From positions 1,426,001-1,490,000 of the forward strand of contig NZ_CAAHFB010000001.1 of assembly GCF_900880625.1 (NCBI RefSeq): 64,000 bases of DNA, read 5' to 3'. Positions within the stretch are counted from its first letter, which is position 1. Each line of letters starts with the position of its first letter. The translations under genes and the position numbers were made by a program. Positions 3 through 64,000 of this stretch are shown here, in pieces. This DNA comes from Halorhabdus rudnickae (lineage in GTDB: Archaea > Halobacteriota > Halobacteria > Halobacteriales > Haloarculaceae). The notes below the pieces were generated by a model that saw only the letters and a list, made by a program, of their open reading frames with translations, searched no databases and was not told the DNA's origin.

Positions 3-680
3 TCGGCGAGTTACTCACCGGTCTCGGGGTCGTACAAGACGATCCTGCTGGACAACGCCGAGCGGATGCGCGAGGACTTCCAGCAGGCGCTCCGGCGAGT
101 CATGGAACAGTACTACGAGGCGACACAGTTCGTCATCGCGACGCGGCAGTCCTCGACGCTGATCCCGCCGATCCGATCGCGATGTTTCCCCCTGACAGTC
201 AGAGCGCCGACCCACGACGAGATCGTGACCGTGCTGGGGCGTATCGCCGAAGCGGAGACAGCCGAGTACGACGAGGAGGGCTTAGAATACGTCGCGGGCT
301 ACGCCGACGGCGACCTCCGGAAGGCGATTCTCGGCGCGCAGACGACACACGAGGCGGCCGGCGAGATCACGATGGACGCCGCCTACGAGGCACTGGGGGA
401 GGTCCAGACCGACGACCGCGTCGAACGCATGCTAGCCGCTGCCGACGAGGGGGAGTTCCGGGATGCCCGCTCGGAACTCGACGACTTGCTGGTCGAGGAA
501 GGCCACAGCGGTCCTGAAGTGTTGGCGGCGATCCTCCGGGTGGGTCGCGCCCGTTACACCGGGGAAACACTGGTACGCCTCCACCGACTGGCCGGCGAGA
601 TCGACCTGGATCTCGCAGCGGGGACCGACGACCGGATCCACCTCTCACATTTGCTGGCCGAACTCGGGGCGAGCGAGTGA
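3..680 (+). CDS. Replication factor C small-subunit-like protein, 3' part
   Basis: This is the C-terminal 225 residues of an AAA+ clamp-loader subunit; the reading frame runs open to the window edge, so Walker A lies outside. Visible are a Walker B-like LLDNAE segment, the stretch MREDFQQALRRVMEQYY typical of RFC small subunits, and the SRC arginine-finger motif in IRSRCF, followed by the helical lid and collar. The first internal ATG is at 66, but similarity starts before it. Walker B reads DNAE rather than DEAD, and the sensor-1 region reads IATRQ rather than the usual SCN, so this is probably one of the divergent haloarchaeal RFC small-subunit paralogues working with RfcL to load PCNA. Which paralogue it is cannot be settled from the fragment. 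Confidence 0.85.
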   Translation, partial: SASYSPVSGSYKTILLDNAERMREDFQQALRRVMEQYYEATQFVIATRQSSTLIPPIRSRCFPLTVRAPTHDEIVTVLGRIAEAETAEYDEEGLEYVAGYADGDLRKAILGAQTTHEAAGEITMDAAYEALGEVQTDDRVERMLAAADEGEFRDARSELDDLLVEEGHSGPEVLAAILRVGRARYTGETLVRLHRLAGEIDLDLAAGTDDRIHLSHLLAELGASE

Positions 681-806
681 CGGGGTGGACGGCCGAAGGT
701 GGGCGACTGAAAGCGGAGACGGAAGCGAAGACAGAATCCACCGGGCGGAAACCGTTCGCTTCGAAATCCTTATACACGTTTGCGGGGGACGTATGAGTAA
801 CGAACT

Positions 807-1118
807 ATGGACATCGAGATCATCGAGGAAGAGGACAATCCGATGTTGCATCGGACGGACGTCCGCTTCGAGGTAACCCACGAGGAGGCGACGCCGTCGC
901 GGCTCTCCGTGCGTGACTCCCTGGCGGCGATGCTCAACAAGGACGCCGAAGAAGTGGTCGTCCACGAGCTGGACACGAAGTACGGCATGCGCAAGACCGT
1001 CGGGTACGCGAAGGTGTACGACGACCCGGAGTTCGCCCGTGAGGTCGAACAGGAGCACATGCTCGAACGCAACAAGATCCTCGGCGAGGAGAGCGATGCC
1101 GAGGCAGAGGAGGCCTGA
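807..1118 (+). CDS. rps24e: 30S ribosomal protein S24e
   Basis: A 103-residue protein with the S24e fold signature: an N-terminal beta strand ([16 protein letters not shown]), then [15 protein letters not shown] and a basic [22 protein letters not shown] segment. It is a structural component of the small ribosomal subunit in archaea and eukaryotes. The acidic tail ([11 protein letters not shown]) is a haloadaptation. A TATA-like CCTTATAC about 30-40 bp upstream supports a near-leaderless transcript. It is followed after 2 bp by S27ae, the usual archaeal pairing. An ATG at 793 is out of frame and was not used. Confidence 0.95.
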
Positions 1119-1120
1119 CG

Positions 1121-1255
1121 ATGGCCCGGCACGAACTCTACGACGACGACGGCACCACCGAGCGTGAACAGTGCCCCCGCTGTGGCGACGCGTTCCTCGC
1201 CGAGCACGGCGACCGACAGCACTGTGGCCGGTGTGGCTACACCGAGTGGAACTAG
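1121..1255 (+). CDS. rps27ae: 30S ribosomal protein S27ae
   Basis: A 44-residue zinc-ribbon protein beginning [11 protein letters not shown] and ending CGYTEWN. Two CxxC pairs are visible (CPRC and CGRC), as expected for the single zinc site of archaeal S27ae. It starts 2 bp after the S24e stop and is almost certainly translated from the same mRNA. It corresponds to the ribosomal half of the eukaryotic ubiquitin-S27a fusion. Confidence 0.95.
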
Positions 1256-1343
1256 GCGGTTGCGAAGCCGAACTGTTGTTCTTTTGATCCACCCACAGTG
1301 ATATCCTTGTCCCATTTGTGAGGGACACTACCCATCGTTCGTG

Positions 1344-1363
1344 ACGTATCCCCAGGGATACGT
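1344..1363. terminator. Perfect 9-bp hairpin downstream of the S24e-S27ae operon
   Basis: ACGTATCCC (1344-1352) pairs with GGGATACGT (1355-1363) across a CA loop. It lies about 90 bp after the S27ae stop in a 240-bp gene-free stretch. No clear T-tract follows, so a terminator or RNA-processing role is only inferred from position. A regulatory site for the damaged SDR gene downstream is the alternative. Confidence 0.35.
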
Positions 1364-1495
1364 GGCGTATTGGTTGTAGAAGTTGTTACCTGACGCCGCC
1401 GAACATAACCCAATTGGTACCAGTCCCCACGGCGTGAGAATGGAATTATAGTTTTTTGATTCTCAGATGGAATATTTGTCTGGAATAGTATATAA

Positions 1496-2239
1496 GAACT
1501 ACAGAATGGCGTCGCGATCGTCACAGGTGCGAGTACTGGAATCGGTGCGGCAACAGCCAAACGGTTCGGTGAGGAGGGAGCCAACATCGTGGCGGCCGAC
1601 GTCAACGTGGAAGATGGCGAGCAGACAGTCGCCGAGATCAACGACGCGGGCGGAGAAGCGACGTTCGTCGAGGTCGACGTCAGCGACCCAGCGGACGTAA
1701 CAGCACTGGTCGAGACAGCTGTCGAGACGTATGGCGGACTCGACTTCGCCGTCAACAACGCCGGCATCGAAGGAGAAAACGCAGCGACCAGTGATCAGCC
1801 ACTCGACAACTGGGAGCAAGTCATCGATGTCAACCTCAAAGGAGTGTTCCTCGGGATGCAGGCCGAAATCGATGCTATGCTGGAAGATGGCGGTGGCTCG
1901 ATCGTCAACATGTCGTCGATCGCCGGCCAAGTCGGGTTTCCGAACTCGAGTCCCTACGTCGCGAGCAAACATGGCGTCATCGGATTGACAAAGACAGCCG
2001 CCGCCGAATACAGTGAGTCCGGCGTCCGCGTCAACGCGATCTGTCCTGGCGTGATCGAAACGCCGATGGTCGAGGCAAGTGACCAGGCGATGATCGAGGG
2101 GATCACCGCGGCGACCCCGATCGGTCGCCTGGGCGAACCGCCGGAGATCGGCGATGCCGCCGTGTGGCTGTGCTCTGAGGAGGCCTCGTTCATCACCGGT
2201 GAGTCCCTCGTGATCGACGGCGGGTACATCACCCAGTAA
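1496..2239 (+). pseudogene. SDR family NAD(P)-dependent oxidoreductase with lost start codon
   Basis: The frame encodes an almost complete classical short-chain dehydrogenase/reductase: the nucleotide-binding TGASTGIG motif (1523-1546), NNAG, the catalytic Ser in NMSS, the YVASK catalytic motif, and the IDGGY C-terminus; 247 residues is normal for the family. But the frame opens with TAA at 1493-1495 followed directly by GAACTACAG, where homologues would begin M-E-L-Q. No ATG, GTG or TTG exists in frame until GTG at 1589, which lies after the Rossmann glycine motif. A protein from 1589 would lack cofactor binding. Either the start was mutated and this is a recent pseudogene, or there is a sequence error. 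A TATA-like TATATAAG overlaps the expected start. Confidence 0.7.
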
Positions 2240-2329
2240 CGGCCCGCAGTCGCGGTGGCTCCCGGACTGCTGAGGCCGAGTGGGATCGAAGTCGTCTTTT
2301 CCATCGACGATAGAGCCTCTACCGATTGA

Positions 2330-4147
2330 ATGGAACGGACAGCGAGTAACGACGACGCCACCCGGGTACTCGGAATTGAAGGCACAGCCTGGGCCGCCAG
2401 CGCAGCCATCTACGACGTCGATGCTGACGACGTCACGATCGAGACGGACGCATACGAACCCGACAGCGGCGGCATTCACCCGCGGGAAGCCGCCGAACAC
2501 ATGCAAGAAGCCATCCCGGAAGTCGTTGAGCGTGCGCTCGATATCGCTCGCAAGCAGGCCCAAAAGGCGGGCGAAGACCCCGAGGAGTCGCCGGTCGACG
2601 CCGTCGCCTTCTCGCGAGGTCCCGGACTCGGTCCCTGTCTGCGGATCGTCGCCACGGCCGCACGGGCACTTGCCCAGCGACTCGACGTGCCGCTGGTCGG
2701 CGTCAACCACATGGTGGCACACTTGGAAATCGGTCGCCACCGCTCGGGCTTTTCCTCGCCGGTCTGTTTGAACGCTTCCGGCGCGAACGCCCACGTCCTT
2801 GGGTATCGCAATGGCCGCTATCGCGTCCTTGGCGAGACGATGGACACCGGTGTCGGCAATGCTATCGACAAGTTCACCCGTCACCTCGGGTGGTCTCACC
2901 CCGGCGGGCCGAAAGTCGAGAAACGCGCCAGGGACGGCGAATATATCGACATGCCCTACGTCGTCAAGGGGATGGACTTCTCCTTTTCGGGGATCATGAG
3001 CGCCGCCAAGCAGGCCGTCGACGGGGTTCCCGCGAGCGAAGCGAGCGGGAGCTCGTCGGACCGTCAGTCCGACGGTGGGGAGGCAGTCGAAGACGTCTGC
3101 TACTCGCTGCAGGAAAACATCTTCGCGATGCTGACCGAAGTCAGCGAGCGCGCGCTCTCGTTGACGGACGCCGACGAACTCGTCCTCGGTGGTGGCGTCG
3201 GCCAGAACGAGCGTCTTCGGGAGATGCTTGCGGAAATGTGCAAACAGCGCGGGGCGGACTTCTACGCCCCCGAACCGCGATTGCTGCGGGACAACGCGGG
3301 GATGATCGCCGTCCTCGGCGCAAAGATGTACGCGGCGGGCGACACGATCGCGGTCGAGGACTCGACGGTTCGCCCGGACTTCCGGCCCGACGAGGTGGCC
3401 GTCAGCTGGCGTTCAGGTGAGTCCGTTGGCTCGTGGGCGGGCTCAAGCGATAGTGAACGGGTTCAGGGTGCCGAGGCGACCGTCACCGTCGAGAATGGCC
3501 GCGTCCGCAAACGCCGGAACCCGCGCACGTACCGCCACCCCACGCTCGACGAGCGCCTACGGACCGAACGCACACGCGAGGAAGCGCGTCTCACCAGCGA
3601 GGCGCGGCGGGCGGGCGTGCCGACACCGGTCGTTTACGACATTGATCCACAGGACAGCGTGCTGGTCTTCGAGCGCGTCGGCGACCGGGACCTGCGGGCA
3701 GAACTCACCGTCGAGCGCGTGAGGGATGTCGGACGACATCTGGCGACGATCCACGACGCGGGGTTCGTCCACGGTGATCCGACGACGCGCAACGTCCGGC
3801 TCGCGGGCGGCGCGAGCGAAGAGAGCGCCGCCGACAGTGCGAGTAGCGCGGAACGGAGTTCCGCAGACAGTCAAGCGGCGAAGCCGCGAGGCGACGGTGA
3901 CAGACGGAGCCGTGAGCAGGCCCCGGATCGCACATACCTGATCGACTTCGGACTGGGCTACTACAGCGATCACGCCGAGGATCACGCGATGGACCTGCAC
4001 GTCTTCGGCCAGTCGCTATCGGGGACAGCCAACGACGCCGAACCACTGTGTGAGGCCGCAGAAGCGGCCTACCGCGAGGCAAGCGAGCGGGGCGAAACCG
4101 TCCTGGATCGCCTGCGGGAGATCGAAGGCCGCGGCCGGTATCAGTGA
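2330..4147 (+). CDS. Bifunctional tRNA t6A synthase subunit Kae1 / atypical kinase Bud32
   Basis: A 605-residue fusion of two KEOPS subunits. Residues 1 to about 330 form the Kae1/TsaD ASKHA domain with the metal-binding NHMVAHLE motif, the SFSG loop and GGGVGQNERL; this half transfers threonylcarbamoyl to A37 of ANN-decoding tRNAs. Residues about 390-605 are Bud32, with the VHGDPTTRN catalytic loop and the LIDFGLG metal motif; this is a KEOPS P-loop-less kinase/ATPase. The fusion is common in Euryarchaeota. Two low-complexity Ser/Ala/Asp-rich inserts are odd: one in Kae1 (nt 3031-3085) and one of about 40 residues between the Bud32 catalytic loop and DFG (nt 3806-3920). Both are built of small DNA palindromes. 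Confidence 0.95.
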   Translation: MERTASNDDATRVLGIEGTAWAASAAIYDVDADDVTIETDAYEPDSGGIHPREAAEHMQEAIPEVVERALDIARKQAQKAGEDPEESPVDAVAFSRGPGLGPCLRIVATAARALAQRLDVPLVGVNHMVAHLEIGRHRSGFSSPVCLNASGANAHVLGYRNGRYRVLGETMDTGVGNAIDKFTRHLGWSHPGGPKVEKRARDGEYIDMPYVVKGMDFSFSGIMSAAKQAVDGVPASEASGSSSDRQSDGGEAVEDVCYSLQENIFAMLTEVSERALSLTDADELVLGGGVGQNERLREMLAEMCKQRGADFYAPEPRLLRDNAGMIAVLGAKMYAAGDTIAVEDSTVRPDFRPDEVAVSWRSGESVGSWAGSSDSERVQGAEATVTVENGRVRKRRNPRTYRHPTLDERLRTERTREEARLTSEARRAGVPTPVVYDIDPQDSVLVFERVGDRDLRAELTVERVRDVGRHLATIHDAGFVHGDPTTRNVRLAGGASEESAADSASSAERSSADSQAAKPRGDGDRRSREQAPDRTYLIDFGLGYYSDHAEDHAMDLHVFGQSLSGTANDAEPLCEAAEAAYREASERGETVLDRLREIEGRGRYQ

Positions 4148-10779: not shown

Positions 10780-11615
10780 GCGACGCCATCGACGCGGTCT
10801 TTGCCGAGGGCGAGCCCGCGTTCATCCCGTATCTCGTCGCTGGCGATCCCAACTACGAGGCCTCCCTCGAATACGTCGAGGCGCTGGAACGCGGCGGCGC
10901 AGACGTGATCGAACTCGGCCTTCCGTTCTCCGAGCCGATCGCCGAGGGATCGACGATCCAGGATGCGATCGTTCGATCCCTGGAAGCCGGAATGACGCCC
11001 GATCGATACTTCGATTTCGTCGAAGATCTGGACGTCAAAGCGCCGCTGGTCTGTATGACCTACTACAACCTGATCTACCAGTTTGGGTCCGAGCCAGGAC
11101 CCGAGTCCTTCGTCGAACGAGCCGCCGAAGCCGGGATCGCGGGCCTGGTCGTTCCCGACCTCCCGGCCGAGGAGGCCGACCCACTCCGGGCGGCCTGTGA
11201 CGAACACGGTCTCGACCTGATCTTCATCGTCGCGCCGACGACCGAGGGCGACCGCCTCGCGCGGATGATGGAGCGGGTCTCGGGGTACGTCTACGTCCAG
11301 GCACGGCTGGGGACGACTGGCGCGCGCGAGGACGTCAGCGATCAGACCGACGAGAGCCTCGCGCGACTCTCCGAGTGGGACGTCCCCAAAGCAGTCGGAT
11401 TTGGGATCAAGACCGGCGCGCACGCCGAGCGGATCGTCTCGGCGGGCGCTGACGGCATCATCGTCGGCTCGGCGCTGGTCGACATCGTCGCCGAAGGGAC
11501 GGACGGAGACGAGTCGACCGAGGCAGTCGCGGAGCGACTCGAAACCAGGGCCAGAGAGCTCAAGGAAGGTGCGCTCCGCGGCGCCGGCATCGCGACGCCG
11601 GAGTCTGGGGACTGA
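10776..11615 (+). CDS. trpA: Tryptophan synthase alpha subunit
   Basis: A 279-residue TIM barrel that releases indole from indole-3-glycerol phosphate. The general-base Glu is Glu46 ([11 protein letters not shown]). The position of the second catalytic acid, Asp60 in Salmonella (PLADG), is Glu57 here (PIAEG), and the preceding SDP is SEP. I recall this variant from other haloarchaeal TrpA proteins, so it is probably a lineage feature rather than inactivation. The phosphate loop is [11 protein letters not shown]. It ends the trpCBA operon, 13 bp from the convergent lipoprotein gene. Confidence 0.95.
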
Positions 11616-49656: not shown

Positions 49657-51885
49657 TCACTCCTCGTCCGCAGTCAGCACGCCGGGGAGGAACCGATCCT
49701 CGTGGGCCGTGATCCGATCCTCGTACCCGAGGAGGGTGTCCAAGATCGACCGGACTCCCGCCTCGAATGTCGTTCCCTGGCCGTCGATGAGGGCGGCGTA
49801 GCGGTCGTTCTCGATCTCCATCTGGTGAGTCTCGTCCTCGTCCCGGGGGTTCTCGTAGTGTTCGACCGCGACGTCGAGATCGAACTCACCGGCGACGTCG
49901 GCGATGGTCTCGGCAACTTCGACGATGGAGATGGCCCGGGTGACCTGGTTGTAGACGACGTGATCGGCCGGTCGATCCTCGGGATCACCGAGGGCCAGTC
50001 GTGCCAGCCCTTCGACAGCGTCCTCCATGGCGATGAAGGGCTTGCGCTGCTCGCCCTTGCCGTAGACGGTCATCGGATAGCCCGCGACGGCCTGAGCGGC
50101 AAAGCGGTGGGCGACGACGCCGAAGTAATAATCGAAGTCAAAGCGCGTCGCGAGTCGCGGATCGGCCTCGGTCTCCTCGGTTCCCGTGCCGTAGGTGATC
50201 GCCGTCCGCACGTCGCTGATAGGGATGTCGAACTGCGAGTGCGCGAGGCGCATGTTCGCCGCGTCGTGTGATTTAGAGTTCCCACACCAGACCGGGTTCC
50301 CATCACGGCGAACCAGAATAATTCCACCATCGACCGTGCAGCAATACACGGAACCATCGTACTGTTCACGACCAAACGCGTCGCCACCCTGGTTCGTCTG
50401 TACACACCAAGACGGACTGATAGCCACCCGGTACTCGCGTTTCGTTTGATAGTTGTCTTGGTCGCTTCGGTCGAGATGGTGGATCGTCGCACCGTATCCG
50501 AGTTTAAGTGCGATTTCCTGTACGTCGTCAGCCAGCCTTTCGTTTGACGTGTAGAACGTCCACCCACGACCGTTTTCGCTTCCGTCACCCTCGATGAGAG
50601 CTTCGAGAAGTACTTCCAGACGATCACGCGACAGATTCCGCATCCACTCGGGGATACGTTTGTCGTCCTTGAACTGCCGCAGATAGGTCGCTAACTGGTG
50701 GTCAGAGAGCTCGACGTATTCCTGCTTGTGATCAACGTGATGGCGGACCTTTTCTCGGTCAAATCCAATTTCCTCGAACAACTCAGCCAGATGTTCGCCC
50801 TCCGATTGATAGAGTCGGACGTTACTCGTCTGTCCGGCCTTGCCAACGGTACCTTCCGTCACCCACCAGCCGAAGAAACGGAGCCACGCGTCGATTTCAA
50901 TTTCGCGCTGCTGCAGTCTGATGACTTTCGCGTGGTTAACCTCACGATCACACCCGGGGAGTTCGAAAGATTCGAGATCAGTACCGTTCCAATCCGGGAA
51001 CGACGTGAAAATGCACGGATGCTGGTACTCGTCACCGAGTCGGTCAGCTTCGACGACTTCCCGTCGATCCTCGAAGGTTTCGTGACCACCCTGCGCCCAA
51101 CTTGTCCCGATAAGCATCCGGTGATTTGGCGTCACCCGCAAGTCGACACGGCGGTTGGAAACGGTCACCATCTCGCCGGAGTAATCGTACGCTTGGACGT
51201 CGGTGGGCGTCGTCCACCTCGTCTCGCCTGTATCGACATCCATCGACATAACCTCGTCCTGTGCGGTCAGGTCGGGGAAACGTTTCCACCCTTCCTTCGT
51301 TAGAATCTCCGTCTCGTCGTCGTAACATTGGTGATACCAGCTGCCCGCCATCGCCGGGAACGGCACCTCGTCGTCCTCGCCCTGGTTTTCCATCGTCGCG
51401 CCGCCCTCCGGGATCGGGAATTCGGGGGCGCCGTAGACGCCGGTCGTGGTCGTCTCGATGAAGTGGGTGTCCGTCAGATCGTGTTCCTCAAGTCCCCACA
51501 GCAGGTTCCGGGTGGCCTGCATGTTGTTGTGCTGGGTGTAGTTGGCCCGCTCGCCGTTGATCTGCGAATAGGGGGCGGAGGGCTGGGCGGCCGTATGGAC
51601 GATCGTGTCGGGTTCGTGGACCGCGAGCAGTTCCTCGACGAAGGCCTTCTCGACGAGGTCGCCCTCGACGAAGGAGAGGTTCCTGACGCCGTGGACCGCC
51701 TCGGCGGCCTCGATGCGTTCGTCGACCGAGGCGATCGGGACGCCGCTGACGGAGCCGACTTCCTCGACCCACTCCCGCCGGGCGAAGTTGTCCACCAAGA
51801 TCACGCGGTCGTCGGTGCGCGTGGCGATGCGCAGGGCGGTCGGCCAGCCGATGTGGCCGTCACCCCCGGTGACGATGATCGTCAT
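49657..51885 (-). CDS. SQD1-like NAD-dependent epimerase containing an intein
   Basis: A 742-residue precursor. Residues 1-186 and 537-742 together make a 392-residue extended SDR with close likeness to UDP-sulfoquinovose synthase SQD1: TIIVTGGDGHIGWPTALRIA, VDNFARREW, SAPYSQINGERANYTQHNNMQATRNLLW, TTTTGVYG and MTVYGKGEQRKPF. Sulfoquinovose synthases join sulfite to UDP-glucose. The catalytic motif is YHQSK: Tyr184 is before the intein and Lys188 (spliced numbering) after it. The activity thus requires protein splicing. It begins a three-epimerase operon behind a TrmB-type operator. Whether the sugar is sulfoquinovose is not proven. Confidence 0.9.
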   Translation of the reverse strand: MTIIVTGGDGHIGWPTALRIATRTDDRVILVDNFARREWVEEVGSVSGVPIASVDERIEAAEAVHGVRNLSFVEGDLVEKAFVEELLAVHEPDTIVHTAAQPSAPYSQINGERANYTQHNNMQATRNLLWGLEEHDLTDTHFIETTTTGVYGAPEFPIPEGGATMENQGEDDEVPFPAMAGSWYHQCYDDETEILTKEGWKRFPDLTAQDEVMSMDVDTGETRWTTPTDVQAYDYSGEMVTVSNRRVDLRVTPNHRMLIGTSWAQGGHETFEDRREVVEADRLGDEYQHPCIFTSFPDWNGTDLESFELPGCDREVNHAKVIRLQQREIEIDAWLRFFGWWVTEGTVGKAGQTSNVRLYQSEGEHLAELFEEIGFDREKVRHHVDHKQEYVELSDHQLATYLRQFKDDKRIPEWMRNLSRDRLEVLLEALIEGDGSENGRGWTFYTSNERLADDVQEIALKLGYGATIHHLDRSDQDNYQTKREYRVAISPSWCVQTNQGGDAFGREQYDGSVYCCTVDGGIILVRRDGNPVWCGNSKSHDAANMRLAHSQFDIPISDVRTAITYGTGTEETEADPRLATRFDFDYYFGVVAHRFAAQAVAGYPMTVYGKGEQRKPFIAMEDAVEGLARLALGDPEDRPADHVVYNQVTRAISIVEVAETIADVAGEFDLDVAVEHYENPRDEDETHQMEIENDRYAALIDGQGTTFEAGVRSILDTLLGYEDRITAHEDRFLPGVLTADEE
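50278..51327 (-). mobile_element. Intein with LAGLIDADG homing endonuclease
   Basis: A 350-residue intein, from Cys187 (CYDDETEIL, block A) to Asn536 (VWCGN), with Ser as the first C-extein residue. Block B is LRVTPNHRML, the endonuclease blocks are LRFFGWWVTEG and LEALIEGDG, and block F is DGSVYCCTV. The C-terminal dipeptide is Gly-Asn rather than the usual His-Asn, a variant seen in some active inteins. The sequence is visibly less GC-rich than the exteins. Splicing restores an uninterrupted YHQSKSHD. It lies in the enzyme's most conserved site, a typical homing target. Confidence 0.93.
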
Positions 51886-51993: not shown

Positions 51994-53799
51994 TTACTCC
52001 ACGGTGACGCTCTTGGCGAGGTTCCGCGGTTTGTCGATCGGGCGGTCGAGTTTCGCGGCGGTGTGATAGGCCGCAAGCTGGAGTTGGACATTCGCCAGCA
52101 CGGCAGCGGTCCGGGGCGAACTTTCGGGGATCGAGAGGACGTGATCGGCGTACCGGGAAACATCGCTCTGGCCGTCGGTCACCGCCACGACCGGCGCGTC
52201 TCTGGCCTCGACCTCCTTGACGTTGCCGATGGTTTTGCTGGCCTGCTCGTCGTCGCCGGTCACGATAGCGAAGACGGGTGTATTGCTCGTCACGAGAGCG
52301 AGGGGTCCGTGTTTCAACTCGCCGGCGGCGAAGCCTTCGGCGTGTTTGTACGTGATCTCTTTCATCTTTAGAGCACCTTCCAGGGCGACGGGATACTGCA
52401 GGCCACGACCGATGAAGAAGTAGGCGTCGCTGTCGAGATACGCCGTAGCGATCGCCTCGGCCGCCGAGTCATCGAGCACTGCCTGGACGTTCGCGGGGAG
52501 GTCACGCAACGAGGCGATAGCCTCCCGGTCGTCCTTGCTCGGGGCCATCCCGATCGAGAGCAGATTCAGCGACGCCAGCTGGGAGGCGAAAGTCTTGGTC
52601 GCGGCGACGCCGATCTCCGGTCCCGCCTTGATGTAGAAAACGTCGTCGCACTCGCGGGCAACCGTCGACCCGACGACGTTGGTCACGGCGAGCGTCCGAG
52701 CGCCACGAGAGCGGGCCGCCCGGAGCGCCGAGAGCGTATCAGCGGTCTCGCCGCTCTGGGTAACGCCGACGACGAGTTCGTCGCCGATCGGCGGCGGTGC
52801 GCTGGCGTACTCACTCGCAAGGAACGCCTGAGCGGGGATCCCGGCAGCGCGAAACAGCTGGGCGCCGTACAGCGCCGCGTGATAGCTCGTCCCGCAGGCG
52901 ACCAGGTGGACGCCACGCGGATGGAGATACGCCAGATCCCCGATCTCGACCTCGCCCGCGAGTTCGTCGACCCGCTCGGAGAGACACTGCCGCAACGCCC
53001 GGGGCTGTTCGTTGATCTCTTTCTGCATGAAATGATCGTAGCCGGCCTTGCCTGTCTCTTCTGGGTCCCACTCGACGGTATCGACTTCGGGATCGGCAGG
53101 CTCGCCCGCGAGGTCCGTGACGGTCCAGCTCGCCGACGACACCCTGACGAACTGGCCGTCCTCCAGATAGACCACGCGGTCGGTGTGTTCACGGAACGCC
53201 GGAACGTCACTCGCCAGGTAGTACTGCCCGACGCCGTCAGTCTCGTCACCGATCCCGAGCACCAGCGGCGAGTCGTTGCGGGCGGCGAAGATCGCCTCAC
53301 ACCCGCCGATCACGGCAGCGACGGCGAAACTCCCCTCTAGTCGGGAGACTGCTTCTCTGACAGCCGATTCGGGATCGGCCCCGTCCGCCAGTGCCGCTTC
53401 GATCAGGTGCGGGACGACCTCCGTGTCGGTGTCGCTCCGGAACGTATGGCCCGTCTCGCGGAGTTCGTCTCGAAGCGTCTGGTAGTTCTCGATGATGCCG
53501 TTGTGGACGACGGCGACCTCGCCGGTACAGTCAGCGTGGGGATGGGCGTTCTCGTCGGTCGGCGGGCCGTGGGTGCTCCAGCGCGTGTGCCCGATCCCGA
53601 GCGCCCCCTCGGGAGCGACCGTCTCGACGGCCGTCCTGAGGTCGTCGATCGAACCCGACTGTTTGACTACCTTGAGGGCCCCGTTTCCCAGCGCGACGCC
53701 GGCCGAATCGTACCCGCGATACTCCAACGTCGACAGTCCCTCGAGGAGGACATCGGTCGTCTCAGGCCCGTGGCCGACACAGCCGATGATGCCACACAT
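51994..53799 (-). CDS. glmS: Glutamine-fructose-6-phosphate aminotransferase (isomerizing)
   Basis: A 601-residue enzyme that makes glucosamine-6-phosphate for UDP-GlcNAc. The N-terminal Cys nucleophile of the Ntn glutaminase is in MCGIIGCVGHG; a GHTRWSTHG motif follows. The C-terminal half has two SIS domains (VGVTQSGETADTL; IGRGLQYPVALEGALKMKEI) and ends AKSVTVE. It starts in a 4-bp overlap with the upstream nucleotidyltransferase gene, so the two form a hexosamine operon. Confidence 0.96.
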   Translation of the reverse strand: MCGIIGCVGHGPETTDVLLEGLSTLEYRGYDSAGVALGNGALKVVKQSGSIDDLRTAVETVAPEGALGIGHTRWSTHGPPTDENAHPHADCTGEVAVVHNGIIENYQTLRDELRETGHTFRSDTDTEVVPHLIEAALADGADPESAVREAVSRLEGSFAVAAVIGGCEAIFAARNDSPLVLGIGDETDGVGQYYLASDVPAFREHTDRVVYLEDGQFVRVSSASWTVTDLAGEPADPEVDTVEWDPEETGKAGYDHFMQKEINEQPRALRQCLSERVDELAGEVEIGDLAYLHPRGVHLVACGTSYHAALYGAQLFRAAGIPAQAFLASEYASAPPPIGDELVVGVTQSGETADTLSALRAARSRGARTLAVTNVVGSTVARECDDVFYIKAGPEIGVAATKTFASQLASLNLLSIGMAPSKDDREAIASLRDLPANVQAVLDDSAAEAIATAYLDSDAYFFIGRGLQYPVALEGALKMKEITYKHAEGFAAGELKHGPLALVTSNTPVFAIVTGDDEQASKTIGNVKEVEARDAPVVAVTDGQSDVSRYADHVLSIPESSPRTAAVLANVQLQLAAYHTAAKLDRPIDKPRNLAKSVTVE

Positions 53800-54992
53800 C
53801 AGCGCCGCACCTCCGCGTCTCCCGGAACGGAGCCGCTCACGTGGACGCCCGTACCGATCCTGGCGTTCGGGCCAACCAGCGTTCCGGGAGCAAACGACAC
53901 GTTCCCTTCGGCACGCACCCGATCGGCCAGTAACGCACCCAGCGGCCGCCCTTCGAGGATCCGGTTGTCGACCCGGACTTCGGCCGGTCCGCCCGGGACG
54001 ACGCTGCCCGCACCCACGCGAACGTCCTGTCCGGTGACCGCCTCGACGAGCGTTGAGCCTGGCCCGATTCGCGTATCGTCGTCCAGCACTGCGGTAGTGA
54101 CCGTCGCATTCGCGCCGACAGTAACGTTCCGTCCGAGCGCGACATCCGGACCGACGACCGCACCTGGCCCGACCTCGCTGTCCGGGCCGACAACGGTCGG
54201 TCGCTGGACGGTTGCCGTCTCGTGAACCCGTGCGCTCTCGGCGATCCAGACGCCACGCTCGCGCTCGCCGACGGTCGGGACGCCGTCAGCAAGGACTTCG
54301 CGAGTCAACTCCAGAAGGTCCCAGGGATAGGTTGCGTCGACCCACGTGCCATCGGTCTCGGCGGCCCCCACCTGCCGATCGTCGATCAAGCCCACCAGCG
54401 CGTCAGTCAACGCAAGTTCACCACGTTCTCGTGGCGTCGCCTCGATCCTCGCGAAGATAGACCCCTCGAAAGCATAGACCCCGGCGTTAATTAATCGATA
54501 GTCGTCGGCATCCGGTTTCTCGACGAGATCGGTGACGACGTCCCTCTCGACATCGACGGCACCGTACTCTTGGGGATCTGGGCCGTCCAGGACCGCCAGC
54601 GTGGCCGCCACGTCACCCTCAGCGAAGCGGTCGGCGACATCGCCGACGATCGTCGGGTCGATTAGCGTGTCGCCGTTGACGACCAGCATCGACCCGTCGA
54701 CGGCGTCGCGGGCTTCCAGCAGGGCATGACCGGTTCCCAGTTGCTTGTCCTGGCGGACGTACGTGATCGGTCGGTCCCGGTAGGATGGACCGAAGTAGTT
54801 CTGGACGCGATCACGCTCGTACCCCACGACAAGGACGAGTTCCTCGATACCAGTCTCGACGAGTGCGTCCAGAACGTGCTCTAAGATCGGCCGGGTGGCC
54901 GCCGGAAGCATGGGCTTTGGCCGGTTGCGCGTCAACGGCCGCAACCGGGTCCCCTCGCCCGCCGCGAGGACTACTGCCGTCTGAATGCTCAT
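53799..54992 (-). CDS. glmU: Bifunctional sugar-1-phosphate nucleotidyltransferase/acetyltransferase (GlmU-like)
   Basis: A 397-residue protein. Residues 1 to about 230 are a nucleotidyltransferase (VVLAAGEGTRLRPLTRNRPKPMLP, VNGDTLI, VEKPDADDY), and residues about 240-395 a left-handed beta helix of hexapeptide repeats (GPGAVVGPDVALGRNVTVGANATV). It resembles archaeal GlmU (GlcN-1-P acetyltransferase and UDP-GlcNAc pyrophosphorylase), which suits the glmS partner. The start is at MSIQTAVVL (54992), rejecting a 15-residue upstream extension. Confidence 0.85.
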   Translation of the reverse strand: MSIQTAVVLAAGEGTRLRPLTRNRPKPMLPAATRPILEHVLDALVETGIEELVLVVGYERDRVQNYFGPSYRDRPITYVRQDKQLGTGHALLEARDAVDGSMLVVNGDTLIDPTIVGDVADRFAEGDVAATLAVLDGPDPQEYGAVDVERDVVTDLVEKPDADDYRLINAGVYAFEGSIFARIEATPRERGELALTDALVGLIDDRQVGAAETDGTWVDATYPWDLLELTREVLADGVPTVGERERGVWIAESARVHETATVQRPTVVGPDSEVGPGAVVGPDVALGRNVTVGANATVTTAVLDDDTRIGPGSTLVEAVTGQDVRVGAGSVVPGGPAEVRVDNRILEGRPLGALLADRVRAEGNVSFAPGTLVGPNARIGTGVHVSGSVPGDAEVRR

Positions 54993-55063
54993 GTGGGTGG
55001 CAAGCGTGGCACGCGCTTGAACGTTCTGGGCCCCCAATCCGCTCTCGCTCGCCCGGTCTCGAC

Positions 55064-56102: not shown

Positions 56103-58808
<2,706 letters not shown>

Positions 58809-58887
58809 AGTTGTGTGCGTTTGTGTCTGCGTTTTGCGATTGGTATATGCTTTGTGTATTATTCATTAGGCGACTCTCGTTTGGAAT

Positions 58888-61752
58888 TTAACCCATGTAG
58901 TCCGTGATAGGGGCGTCGTTGAGGTACGACGCGATGACGTCGTTGATCTGGTCGTCCGACAGATCGTCGTTGAGGTAGTCGTTGACAGCATCGTTGAGGC
59001 CGTCGTCCCCGACGACATCGTTGCTGTCGACGTAACCCGTGTACCAGTCAGTCGGGACATCATCGAGTTCCAGCTCTTGGAGGCTGATACCGGCCGTAGT
59101 CGTCCCGGACACCAGGTTCTCAAGCTGGCCCTCGTTGAAGCCAGTGTATTCATTCCCATCAGCGTCCACGAAGGTCGCAACGACGCGGTAGTCCTCGCCT
59201 GTCGGGACGTTCTGGAAGGTGAACGAGCCGTCCGTACCGGTGGTCACCGACCGATTCTCGAAGGACACGAAGGCACCGGTCGAGTTTTCGATCTGCAATT
59301 CGATCGTAGCGCCCGGAACCTGCTCCTGATTCGCGTCGATGACGTCACCTTCGATGTTACCGGTAGTGACAAGTTCGACCTCTGCCTGATCAGCGATAGC
59401 GTTGATGCTGTCAGTGGAGCCGTCAGTCCGGTACTGGGTGTTTTCAGAGTTCGTGATCGACGCCGTGATGTTGACGATGCCGGTCTGCGTCTCAACGCCT
59501 TCGATCGCCGTGTAGGCGACTCCGTTCGAGTTCGTCTCAACGGTGGTGTTGACCAAGTTGGCCACACCGGAATCACGGATCAGTTCGAGGTCGATCTCCT
59601 CATTCGCGGCGGACGTGAAGTCAGCCGGATCCTGGCCGACCTCGCCGGAGGCGACTTCGATCTGGACCTGACGACTCTCCGTGTCGGGGAGAGTGGTCGA
59701 CTTCACAAAGTCACCCTCCGCGTCAGCGACGGTCACGTTGAGGTCGTAGGCCTGCGCTGTCTCGTAGAGGACGTGCGAGTAGACGTCGTCCTCGCCGCTG
59801 CCTTCGTCACCTGCGATGGTGTTGTTGACGTCGAAGTCGGCCACGTAGGTGTCGCCTGCCAGGCCAGTCTGAGCACTCAGCGTGTTGCCGTTCGAGAGTG
59901 TAGCCTCGGACGAGTTGAAGACGTCGTAGTCGTCCTTCTGGACGTAGACGTTGAAGCGCGGACTGTCGCTGTCAGCGCTGCCGATAATGCCGTCGATGAC
60001 GGCCATACCGTTCTCGTTCGTCTCGTCGACGAGGAAAGCGTCACCAGACAGGTCGGTGATGCTCTCCGCTGCGTCGAGGTTCTGGGAAGCGTTCTGGTAG
60101 GCAACCCACACGGTCGCATTCTCGATTGGCTCACTGTCGGTGCCAACGACCTGGTGCTGGGTGGCCTTGTCGCCCTTCAGGAAGTACGTGACGTTGCCGC
60201 TGTCCGTCAGAGGGGACGTCTCGTTCTGCGCGGACGCGGTGAGCGGCTGATCCGCGATCGGATCGAGGTTGTTGGATTCCAGCCGGTCACGCGTAGCGTT
60301 GTCAGCCGTCACCTCGAAGGTGGCGTAGCTGACGGTACCAGCGCTGACCTTGTCGTAGTCACTGTCGAGTTGCCAGGTGTCCGACCCGTTGATCGTGACG
60401 GACGTACCGCGGTCAAGCGTCTCGTTGTCGATGAAGTCACCCACAGAGACGCCGTGCGTCCCACCAGTCAAGTCGTACGCATCACCGGAAATGTCAAGGG
60501 AGACATCGAGCGTGCCGGAGATGCCATCGTTGGCCTGGTTCTGGGTGACCACAGCGAACGTCTGAGTGTTCTCAGACTCGCCGTCGGCCAGCAACGATCC
60601 CTGGTCGCTGTCGACCGGCTGACCGTTATCGTTCACGCGAACGATTTCGAGGTGCTGGGCATCGAGGTTGGACTGCAGTTCAGGGAAGACCGTCTCCTCG
60701 TTGTTGTTGACCGTGAGCTCCGCAGCACGGTTGTCAGCCTGGAACCGATCTTTGTTGGCCACAACGATGTACTCGACGGGACTGCCGGAGGTACCGACTG
60801 CCAGATCCTCGTATCGGATCCGGTTGTCGTTCGGCCCACCGTCGGCGACGCCAGTTGCGACGACGTTCGTCGAATCAACGGAGCCGACGTACAGCGTCGT
60901 ATTGGCGTTGTCGATCGGGAAGCCTTGGGTGTTGCGGACTTCCGCAGTGACGGCGCCTTCCGTGCTCTGACCACTGACGTAGAACTCGGTCGCCGCAGCG
61001 TCCTGTTTGTCACCCGAGATGTTGTCCGCGAGGTAGACACCGTGGTAAGTGTCCGTATTCGCGGAAATCCCAGCGTTGAGGTAGTCATCGTAGGTGTTCG
61101 GCGTGAACGTCAGCGTTGTAGACGCACCACCAGCCAGCGACGTGTTCATCTGGCTGGCGACCGTCGTGGTCGCCGAATCGCCCAGTACATTGGATTCAGT
61201 ACCGTCCGCAAGGAAGCTGATGTCCGTGTTCTGAGCGGACGAGCCGACGTTCTCGACCGTCACCTCGACGGTAACGCCCGTCGCGTTCGGCGCGACGCGC
61301 GGTGCGTCGACGTTCGTCACGACGACTGTCTGGACCTCGACAGACGCAGTGGCAGCCTCAGCAGTGCTGCCGGAGGTCAAGGAACTGCTCTGAGCGGCTG
61401 CAACATCGTAGCTGCCTGCACTCAGACCAGTTGTGTCAAGGCCACTGAATGGGACGTTATCGCCTGCCGAGAACTGCCCATTGGCTATCGTCGTGTTCGG
61501 TTCGCCTGAATTGAATGTGCCGCTATCGTCTGTGTCAATCCAGACGTGTAGGTCTGGACTTCCACTATCTACCACCACGGTCCCACTGACAGCATCTCCC
61601 TCGGCAACTGGGTCGTTGTCAAGAGAGACGCTGTTAGCGGCTGCTGCGGCCGATCCGGAGATGGCTACCACTCCGGCAAAGACCGACAGCACCATGAGGG
61701 TAGCGAGGAAGGCTGCTCTCGCCTTCTCATATGGTGTTGAATTTCCTGTCAT
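58888..61752 (-). CDS. S-layer-type surface protein with dockerin-like C-terminal module
   Basis: A 954-residue secreted protein. The signal peptide is KARAAFLATLMVLSVFAGVVAISGSAAAA, then Ig-like beta domains (CARDB-like near residues 40-250, a peptidase-associated/CarboxypepD-like one at about 830-900). Around nineteen N-x-S/T sequons are present. Instead of PGF-CTERM it ends in a 50-residue WYTGYVDSNDVVGDDGLNDA...YLNDAPITDYMG segment shared with the subtilase at 62164. The next gene (901 residues) is 79 bp away. It is probably a major surface component, but PGF-type anchoring is not visible. Confidence 0.85.
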   Translation of the reverse strand: MTGNSTPYEKARAAFLATLMVLSVFAGVVAISGSAAAAANSVSLDNDPVAEGDAVSGTVVVDSGSPDLHVWIDTDDSGTFNSGEPNTTIANGQFSAGDNVPFSGLDTTGLSAGSYDVAAAQSSSLTSGSTAEAATASVEVQTVVVTNVDAPRVAPNATGVTVEVTVENVGSSAQNTDISFLADGTESNVLGDSATTTVASQMNTSLAGGASTTLTFTPNTYDDYLNAGISANTDTYHGVYLADNISGDKQDAAATEFYVSGQSTEGAVTAEVRNTQGFPIDNANTTLYVGSVDSTNVVATGVADGGPNDNRIRYEDLAVGTSGSPVEYIVVANKDRFQADNRAAELTVNNNEETVFPELQSNLDAQHLEIVRVNDNGQPVDSDQGSLLADGESENTQTFAVVTQNQANDGISGTLDVSLDISGDAYDLTGGTHGVSVGDFIDNETLDRGTSVTINGSDTWQLDSDYDKVSAGTVSYATFEVTADNATRDRLESNNLDPIADQPLTASAQNETSPLTDSGNVTYFLKGDKATQHQVVGTDSEPIENATVWVAYQNASQNLDAAESITDLSGDAFLVDETNENGMAVIDGIIGSADSDSPRFNVYVQKDDYDVFNSSEATLSNGNTLSAQTGLAGDTYVADFDVNNTIAGDEGSGEDDVYSHVLYETAQAYDLNVTVADAEGDFVKSTTLPDTESRQVQIEVASGEVGQDPADFTSAANEEIDLELIRDSGVANLVNTTVETNSNGVAYTAIEGVETQTGIVNITASITNSENTQYRTDGSTDSINAIADQAEVELVTTGNIEGDVIDANQEQVPGATIELQIENSTGAFVSFENRSVTTGTDGSFTFQNVPTGEDYRVVATFVDADGNEYTGFNEGQLENLVSGTTTAGISLQELELDDVPTDWYTGYVDSNDVVGDDGLNDAVNDYLNDDLSDDQINDVIASYLNDAPITDYMG

Positions 61753-62163: not shown

Positions 62164-64000
62164 TTACTCGATGGGCGTCCCATTGAGGTACGACGTCACG
62201 ACGGTATTGAGCCGTCGATCGGTGAGATCCCCTTCGAGATAGTCCTTGATCGCCGCGTTGATCCCGTTGGCGTCGACCACGTTCTTGTCAGTGACGTAGG
62301 GCACGTACCATTGCTCGTTCGTGGTTATCTCTGTGACGGTCGAGATAGACACTGATCCCAACGACGCGTTAACGGTCACAGGATAGGAGCCATTGGCCAC
62401 CTCCGGCACGTCGAGACGGAACGTCACGTCGGCCGATTCGCCCGGTCCTGGGACCGGCTCTGAAACGCCCAGCAGAGAGAAGTTACTGCCAATGACCTCA
62501 AGGGAATCCGGGATGGACGTGAGCTGAACCGACCCGGAACTCGGCTGGGTAACCCCTTCGTTAACCACTGTGTAAGTCAGGTTCGCGGTCGTCCCCGCTG
62601 GGGCATGAACCTGTTTCGGCCCCTCGATCGAAAGCGTCTCGGAGGCACCGACCGTCAACGACCCGACTACCTCGCCGTCGGGGGTGTAGACACCGTATTC
62701 GACCGTCCCGACCTCGTTTCCGTCGGTCGAAATCGTGAACGATACCGACTCGCTGGTACCGGCCCCGAGCGAGACCGATTCGCTGTCGACTGTCTCTCCG
62801 TCGACGCGTACCTCGGCCGTTTTCGTATCCGAGACGTCACCGGTATTGGTCACAGTCGCCGAGATGTCGACAGATTCACCGGCAGTCACCGTGATGTTTC
62901 CGGGTTCGAGGGCCGACAGCTCGAACGTAGCCGGTTCGAGGACCGTCAGCGTGCTCGTCCGCTCGTCGTGGGGACTAGTAACCGAATACGAGTGTGTCCC
63001 CGGATTCAGATTGGTCGTGTGGAACCCAGGAAAGGAGACTGTCGTACTGCCTCCGGGCGCAAGGGAGACGGACTCGCTATCGATCGTCTGCCCATCGAGA
63101 CGGAGTTCGACCGTCTCCGTGCCGGTTTCCGAGCCGGTGTTTGTGACGATCCCGGAAACAGTCACCATCTCACCCTGGACGACAGACGTCCCGCCGGGGG
63201 AAAGACCCTCGATCGAGAACGTAGCACCATCGGCCGGGCTGCCCTCCACCGCCTCAGTCGCGACGACCAGGCCGTGGCCGCTGCGCCTGTCGATCCCGTC
63301 AGCCTCAATGTCGACCGCGGCGTCCTGCAACCGGGTCCGGACCTCGGCCGGTGACAAGTCCTGGCTCCCATCTTCGAGATCCTGTGCGATCACGAGAGCG
63401 GCTACGCCGGACACGTGCGGAGTAGCCAGAGAGGTACCCGAAACGCTGACAAGCCCACCACCTCTCCCGGTCGTGGTGATATCGACCCCGGGCGCAGCCA
63501 GTTCGACCGTATCACCTTCAGCACTGTAGTCCCACGTTTCGTTCAACTGATCGGTGGCTGCGACGGCGATCGCCCCGTCGTACCGAGCTGGATACGTGAC
63601 TTCATCAGTGGACACATCGTCGTCGCCGGAATTGCCCGCCGCGGCGACGACGACAGCGTGATCACTCGCGTCGTTTATCCAGTTTTGGTAGGAGGAATAC
63701 CCACCAAAGGATCCCAGACTGAGCGACAGGACATCGGCGTCGTCGTCGGTCCCGAGCGTCCCGTCTTGGCCCTTCAACGATGCGTCAATACCGTCGATGA
63801 TCCAGCTGAGGCGCCCCACTCCGCTCTCGTTCAGAACTTTCACCGAGTACACGTCGACCCCGGGAGAAACACCTACGACGCCATTCCCGTCGTCAGCAGC
63901 GGCGACAACGCCGGCCACAGCGGTCCCGTGGCCCTGATTGTCCAGTCCAGCGTACCGACCGTACTCTTCAACCCCGTTGGCGAAGTTCGCTCCCCACGCC
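62164..64000 (-). CDS. Secreted subtilisin-like serine protease, 3' part
   Basis: The frame is open to the window edge; about 612 residues are visible. The His motif NQGHGTAVAG lies at the start of the visible part, the oxyanion Asn in AAAGNSGDDD, and the Ser motif in SGTSLATPHVSG; the catalytic Asp is outside. After the protease domain (to about residue 225 of the visible part) there are two or three CARDB-like domains (GGTSVVQGEMVTVSGIVTNTGSETG; NITVTAGESVDISATVTNTGDVSD) and a C-terminal module WYVPYVTDKNVVDANGINAA...SYLNGTPIE shared with the S-layer-type protein. An exoprotease that is held at, or acts upon, the surface layer is likely. Confidence 0.88.
   Translation of the reverse strand, partial: AWGANFANGVEEYGRYAGLDNQGHGTAVAGVVAAADDGNGVVGVSPGVDVYSVKVLNESGVGRLSWIIDGIDASLKGQDGTLGTDDDADVLSLSLGSFGGYSSYQNWINDASDHAVVVAAAGNSGDDDVSTDEVTYPARYDGAIAVAATDQLNETWDYSAEGDTVELAAPGVDITTTGRGGGLVSVSGTSLATPHVSGVAALVIAQDLEDGSQDLSPAEVRTRLQDAAVDIEADGIDRRSGHGLVVATEAVEGSPADGATFSIEGLSPGGTSVVQGEMVTVSGIVTNTGSETGTETVELRLDGQTIDSESVSLAPGGSTTVSFPGFHTTNLNPGTHSYSVTSPHDERTSTLTVLEPATFELSALEPGNITVTAGESVDISATVTNTGDVSDTKTAEVRVDGETVDSESVSLGAGTSESVSFTISTDGNEVGTVEYGVYTPDGEVVGSLTVGASETLSIEGPKQVHAPAGTTANLTYTVVNEGVTQPSSGSVQLTSIPDSLEVIGSNFSLLGVSEPVPGPGESADVTFRLDVPEVANGSYPVTVNASLGSVSISTVTEITTNEQWYVPYVTDKNVVDANGINAAIKDYLEGDLTDRRLNTVVTSYLNGTPIE

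Follow-up and report, generated by a model that had tools for sequence, protein, structure and literature searches.

The window, a 64,000-nucleotide stretch of the genome of the haloarchaeon Halorhabdus rudnickae, carries on its reverse strand a single open frame whose translation comprises an SQD1-like sugar-nucleotide enzyme interrupted by an intein (Table 1). The intein spans residues 187-536 of the precursor, starting with Cys-Tyr-Asp-Asp-Glu-Thr-Glu (Cys1 codon, 51325-51327) and ending with Trp-Cys-Gly-Asn (Asn350 codon, 50278-50280) directly before Ser537. The catalytic YxxxK motif is split at the Gln186/Ser537 junction, with Y184-H-Q on one side of the insert and S-K on the other. Fused for comparison, the flanks give 392 amino acids with one YxxxK (Y184-H-Q-S-K), and they align without gaps to the structure of Arabidopsis SQD1 (1qrr) up to Q186, resuming at S537 (E = 8.7e-62). 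The N-extein is 96% and the C-extein 91% identical to uninterrupted genes of the same genus. Base composition also sets the intein apart from its host gene: the GC content of the insert is 55.5% against 65.6% for the host gene, and across all five carriers of the element described below the intein lies at 54-57%, with the host gene at 66% here.

A sequence-only reading of this DNA had placed a LAGLIDADG intein at 50278-51327 within the catalytic YxxxK, which our boundaries match to the base. Its claim that the enzyme would be dead until splicing is strongly implied by the arrangement, as the catalytic Tyr and Lys would lie 350 residues apart in the precursor.

Table 1 Features of the SQD1-like gene, its intein and the neighbouring genes in the window
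Feature	Position	Strand	Description
SQD1-like sugar-nucleotide enzyme precursor	49657-51885	(-)	742 aa: 392 aa host and 350 aa intein
N-extein, residues 1-186	51328-51885	(-)	Rossmann NAD-binding motif, Thr145-148 region, catalytic Tyr184; ends Y-H-Q
Gln -1 codon CAA	51328-51330	(-)	Half of the proposed co-conversion footprint
Intein, 350 aa	50278-51327	(-)	Cys1, block B T66-P-N-H69, block F Cys329, C-terminal W-C-G-Asn350
Linker and LAGLIDADG endonuclease region, about intein residues 111-310	50398-50997	(-)	
Endonuclease acidic residues at the two motif ends	E158 codon 50854-50856; D248 codon 50584-50586	(-)	
Ser +1 codon TCT	50275-50277	(-)	Other half of the proposed co-conversion footprint
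C-extein, residues 537-742	49660-50277	(-)	Ser537 (+1), catalytic Lys538, then substrate domain
Epimerase-family gene, 315 aa	48699-49646	(-)	Neighbours the SQD1-like gene in the majority of related genomes
Second epimerase-family gene, 353 aa	47707-48768	(-)	Usually next in line
GlmS, glutamine--fructose-6-phosphate transaminase	51994-53799	(-)	708.7 bits against a cut-off of 418; intein-free here
Sugar nucleotidyltransferase with hexapeptide repeats	53799-55037	(-)	

Architecture of the insert

The insert matches the LAGLIDADG_3 model (PF14528) above its cut-off (E = 1.7e-8), and the Hint_2 and intein N-terminal models match it weakly, both below their curated cut-offs. An AlphaFold model of the intein (pLDDT 90.4) has Hint and LAGLIDADG parts, and its best matches in the Protein Data Bank are inteins with homing endonucleases, TliVMA (7qsu; E = 1.2e-16) and PI-SceI; the fold also matches PI-PfuI, and the endonuclease part matches I-DmoI. 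The model of the whole precursor (pLDDT 59.7) is too low in confidence to place the intein relative to the enzyme.

Most of the residues that define a class 1 intein are present. The nucleophilic Cys at position 1 is found in 38 of 38 related aligned inteins, as are His69 and the block F Cys329, which stands where Asp is usual; Thr66, completing the block B T-x-x-H as T66-P-N-H69, is nearly invariant among the same 38, as are Gly349 and the C-terminal Asn350, which is followed by Ser537. The penultimate His is replaced by Gly349. Absence of this His is a known variant that does not by itself exclude class 1, and because Gly349 is nearly invariant in the related inteins we take it to be characteristic of the group and not a sign of decay. 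The endonuclease part has two LAGLIDADG motifs with acidic residues (FFGWWVTEG and LIEGDG) in addition to the fold. We infer a class-1-type intein, with Cys1 as the nucleophile and with its own LAGLIDADG homing endonuclease, that would be capable of both splicing and cutting. A bacterial intein-like or Hedgehog Hint domain was ruled out, as the flanks complete one conserved host protein.

Identity and surroundings of the host enzyme

The host matches the family model NF041015 in two pieces (E = 1.5e-94) with 317 bits, below the cut-off of 575 bits. Y184 and K538 align to the YHLSK of SQD1, and a run of Thr at residues 145-148 lies in the aligned catalytic-Thr region; we take the catalytic residues of SQD1 to be Thr145, Tyr182 and Lys186. 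The earlier description of the host as SQD1-like is upheld by the match to 1qrr, but its identity as a UDP-sulfoquinovose synthase is unproven because no haloarchaeal homologue reaches the NF041015 cut-off (best score among 391 genomes, 365 bits). That the host is some other sugar-nucleotide enzyme of the same fold is a serious possibility, somewhat short of even odds, and would leave the account of the intein unchanged. Besides the low family scores, the two epimerase-family genes, GlmS and the nucleotidyltransferase alongside point in this direction, whereas among solved structures SQD1 matches best by a wide margin and the catalytic Thr, Tyr and Lys positions are kept. The open-licence literature yielded no papers on SQD1 in haloarchaea or on sulfoquinovosamine in Haloarcula.

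The order of the SQD1-like gene followed by the two epimerase-family genes is kept in most relatives, and GlmS and the sugar nucleotidyltransferase are close by in the window and in three other carriers of the intein (G373, L067 and L068, introduced below). Further along the window, a lower-GC stretch at 56103-61752 beside a subtilase gene (62164-63918) holds two long frames; the first (901 aa) is without a Pfam match and the second (954 aa) has only a carboxypeptidase-regulatory-like domain.

Distribution of the allele and of empty sites

Searched with the intein, 392 genomes of the order contain the allele in only two cases, the window genome and G373 (79% identical, full 350 residues); other matches are mostly less than 40% identical, mostly partial and in far longer frames. 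A collection of named genomes supplied three more same-site copies, in a Salinirussus metagenome-assembled genome (MAG) (L066; 74% identical, full 350 residues), a Haloferacaceae MAG (L068; 73%, full 350 residues) and Halobacteriales QH_10_67_22 (L067; 79% over 335 residues, truncated). Three of these four further carriers are metagenome assemblies. Recurrence of the element at an identical position in four genomes, with all 350 residues present in three, excludes chance. The L067 gene is frameshifted by a 53-base deletion near 11005 that removes the last 15 intein residues together with SKS, and this copy may be either a dead or decaying allele or an assembly fault.

An SQD1-family search of 391 genomes of the class found 150 uninterrupted homologues among the matches listed, in frames of 380-499 codons, and a gene split by this intein only in the window genome and G373 (2/391). 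Empty sites in relatives, for which the sequence-only reading had proposed a check, are thereby found, and its refuting case, an insertion site already widely catalogued, did not arise. All six sampled same-genus relatives are uninterrupted at the site. The closest sampled allele is just 79% identical, and no donor of a recent arrival was seen.

On viral contigs, neither peptide patterns nor a DNA pattern across the N-terminal junction detected a same-site intein, and an alignment scan picked up nothing but distant relatives located in other genes. Phages and plasmids searched by tblastn gave only distant inteins (best, 31%), and where haloarchaeal plasmids carry the host gene, it lacks the intein.

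Two genomes with weaker family matches, G246 and G411, were considered as possible intein holders, and both are empty at the site; a frame break and another insertion lie near residues 61-75. In G411 the SQD1-like gene (L272; G411:C1, 1474924-1477378) is disrupted around residues 69-75 by roughly 1.1 kb of DNA, partly masked, that holds a reverse-strand frame of 302 aa, TnpB-like by eye. Because the gene is broken by this other insertion, it is apparently not essential there.

The window genome has other LAGLIDADG elements: two inteins in an MCM frame of 1784 aa (G000:C1, about 2147070-2149409) and further matches on the same contig at 2279215 and 651668-652168, in frames of 1445 and 1081 aa.

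Movement and selection

The window gene groups among the six empty same-genus genes in one host-gene tree (SH-aLRT 99) and with two of the six in another (support 100/99), and the host genes of the other carriers are placed elsewhere in these trees. The five inteins form one clade (support 100). Forcing the carriers' host genes to be monophyletic gives an lnL difference of 212 (approximately unbiased (AU) test, p = 2.6e-6), and the host tree requires five or more changes in intein presence. Since the inteins form one clade and the host genes do not, the intein has travelled separately from the gene, seemingly between distant species.

Across the whole intein, including the endonuclease, dN is 0.12-0.25 with synonymous sites saturated; identity by codon position in the endonuclease core is 0.80/0.86/0.47, and mean identity among the five alleles is 72% in the endonuclease region versus 75% in the N-terminal splicing part. 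These values indicate purifying selection on the whole element, endonuclease included. Long-lived inteins often lose their endonuclease and the L067 copy shows decay, which would suit an element that still splices with a dead endonuclease and is kept because it cannot be cleanly removed. We regard such a degenerate element as distinctly unlikely here, given that both LAGLIDADG motifs retain their acidic residues in the carriers and that the endonuclease core changes at about the same slow rate as the N-terminal splicing region.

We propose, with a probability of about 0.88, that the insert is a mobile parasite, a splicing intein with its own LAGLIDADG endonuclease for which the SQD1-like gene is a niche. 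The precursor would be translated as one chain, inactive with Tyr184 and Lys538 350 residues apart. Cys1 would attack the bond at Gln186, the chain would pass to Ser+1 and Asn350 would cyclise, joining the flanks as YHQSK to give the active enzyme. The freed intein would then cut intein-less copies of the gene at the conserved YxxxK codons, and repair would copy the intein in together with a few flanking bases, turning a recipient YHLTK (Leu/Thr) into YHQSK (Gln/Ser). A conserved catalytic motif would be a good niche of this kind, since it does not readily mutate and an intein cannot easily leave it other than by precise excision. Splicing, the inactivity of the precursor, DNA cutting and co-conversion are all steps that we infer from sequence comparison.

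The sequence-only reading had gone on to suggest that splicing links sugar synthesis to salt or redox conditions. Such a switch serving the host, in which salt or redox state sets the splicing rate and so gates the sugar-nucleotide pathway, has precedents: other inteins are known to splice conditionally, in response to cues that include redox and salt (reviewed in PMC7765530), and a salt-dependent intein of Halobacterium salinarum is cited within PMC5790916. Insertion in the catalytic motif means that splicing would gate activity, and six of the seven intein cysteines are common to all five alleles. However, Cys348 is replaced by Ser in L066, the acid content of the intein equals that of the host protein (19% Asp plus Glu), and no sequence feature marks a salt sensor or points to a redox link. 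The sporadic and mobile distribution is in keeping with a homing parasite, the intein is absent from all same-genus relatives, and the gene is dispensable in G411, where another insertion has broken it. We therefore did not retain this suggestion and consider a switch very improbable.

A footprint at the junction

Gln/Ser flanks the intein in all four intact carriers. Among about 109 distinct empty genes, most have Leu/Thr, one sub-clade has Gln/Thr and a single gene (G238) has Gln/Ser; the codons are CTC/ACC or CTC/ACG in the six same-genus empty genes, against CAA/TCT in the window gene. A Fisher test of Gln/Ser in carriers versus empty genes gives 8e-7, a value that ignores phylogeny and shared ancestry, and with just three supported independent pairs behind the link a sign test could not be significant. 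The simplest reading, and a likely one, is that Leu/Thr became Gln/Ser by co-conversion during homing; co-conversion of a flanking Pro to Ser has been reported for the haloarchaeal MCM-d intein (PMC10643990). A longer co-conversion tract of 11 bases, with limits chosen after it had been seen, is altered at 8 of 11 sites relative to the four nearest same-genus relatives and at 5 of 11 relative to two others. It was withdrawn, as two same-genus species share part of it, and we claim the two junction codons alone.

The Gln/Ser junction might instead be a precondition, such that the intein invades, or splices in, only those genes that already have it. Empty genes do vary at the +1 position, some having Ser and some Thr, with Gln/Thr in the one sub-clade, and the empty G238 gene (L195/L233; G238:C4, about 626926-628077), the sole empty SQD1-like gene found with Gln/Ser, is sister to the intein-bearing Salinirussus gene (SH-aLRT 100). 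Because of this sister relationship, the G238 gene may be either the scar of a precise intein loss or a site pre-adapted to invasion, and the former explains it equally well. Against a precondition, all six sampled empty relatives in the genus of the window have Leu/Thr, and the separate branches on which Gln/Ser arises are those on which the intein appears. We consider a precondition unlikely and favour co-conversion, under which the change from Leu/Thr to Gln/Ser gives a straightforward way to test what share of an active-site motif a homing element overwrites, and whether old invasions are readable from the scar.

Other inteins in the same enzyme fold

Inteins occur elsewhere in enzymes of this fold. 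An SQD1 gene in a Candidatus Omnitrophota MAG (L085:10001-11011; JAFGFD010000062.1) has one between KLG and TMGEYG, directly before a Thr that aligns to residue 155 of 1i24 and residue 145 of 1qrr. This is the catalytic Thr, and it would serve as the +1 nucleophile of that intein. In an epimerase/dehydratase gene on two viral contigs (L113:4493-6475 and L114:3530-5512), an intein is inserted immediately ahead of CYDEGK, leaving one residue between it and the catalytic YxxxK Tyr. A third viral contig (L276:3953-6901 and 450-3743; IMGVR_UViG_3300035698_016077) encodes an SQD1 homologue with an unrelated 465-aa intein between RADIDS and CFGTML and an adjoining B12-dependent ribonucleotide reductase, itself intein-bearing, along with several surface-sugar genes.

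Because the L085 and L113 inteins fall outside the group of the window intein in a tree, they represent independent entries into one type of niche. The SQD1 host family is a repeated intein target, with unrelated inteins at three sites, of which two are at or beside catalytic residues. This pattern favours the view that an intein depends on its target DNA being conserved, and not on the gene being essential. A more ambitious combination, in which a niche recurrent at three sites (with at least three independent invasions) is left with a lasting Gln/Ser scar that alters the enzyme even after loss (possibly so in G238) and splicing is perhaps salt-gated, is speculative, and we think it improbable as a whole.

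Relation to known systems

TliVMA, PI-SceI and PI-PfuI (7qsu, 1vde and 1dq3), which have been studied biochemically, resemble the window intein in combining a splicing domain with a two-motif LAGLIDADG endonuclease fold, but they reside in different hosts and are only 11-16% identical to it over aligned columns. On the host side, the window sequence aligns with SQD1 (1qrr and 1i24) over nearly its whole length; the plant enzyme, by contrast, is intein-free, and the haloarchaeal homologues fall below the curated family cut-off.

The inteins of the Methanomicrobiales MCM (cdc21) genes, inserted between EAMEQQ and SISVAK, are full-length relatives that match across all 350 residues, sharing the Cys1-YDDETE start, a V/IYC block F and a (W)CGN end. 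They are nevertheless about 33% identical, occupy another host gene and site, and form a separate clade. The junction recalls MCM-d of Haloferax mediterranei and its relatives, in which every occupied site has Ser at +1, unlike the majority of empty sites, and co-conversion of flanking codons was also inferred (PMC10643990). There, however, the host is a replicative helicase and the residue in empty sites is Pro, which blocks splicing, whereas empty SQD1-like sites have Thr, which could act as a nucleophile in its own right, and the change here extends to the -1 residue.

Insertion at catalytic or otherwise conserved residues is the rule for inteins and not the exception (PMC2814812). The sequence-only reading had called the host unusual, and this holds in part. 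Neither SQD1 nor an epimerase is among 24 catalogued haloarchaeal intein alleles (PMC4071816), and we found neither SQD1 nor any other epimerase as an intein host in the open-licence literature; yet those 24 include 'udp', in UDP-glucose 6-dehydrogenase, which is likewise a haloarchaeal sugar-nucleotide enzyme. The udp intein differs in enzyme family and site, and is probably an older, wide-ranging allele (PMC4071816). The SQD1-like host gene and its allele thus appear to be new within a class of sugar-nucleotide hosts that is already known, and they add a metabolic, apparently dispensable host to an intein catalogue dominated by genes of DNA metabolism.
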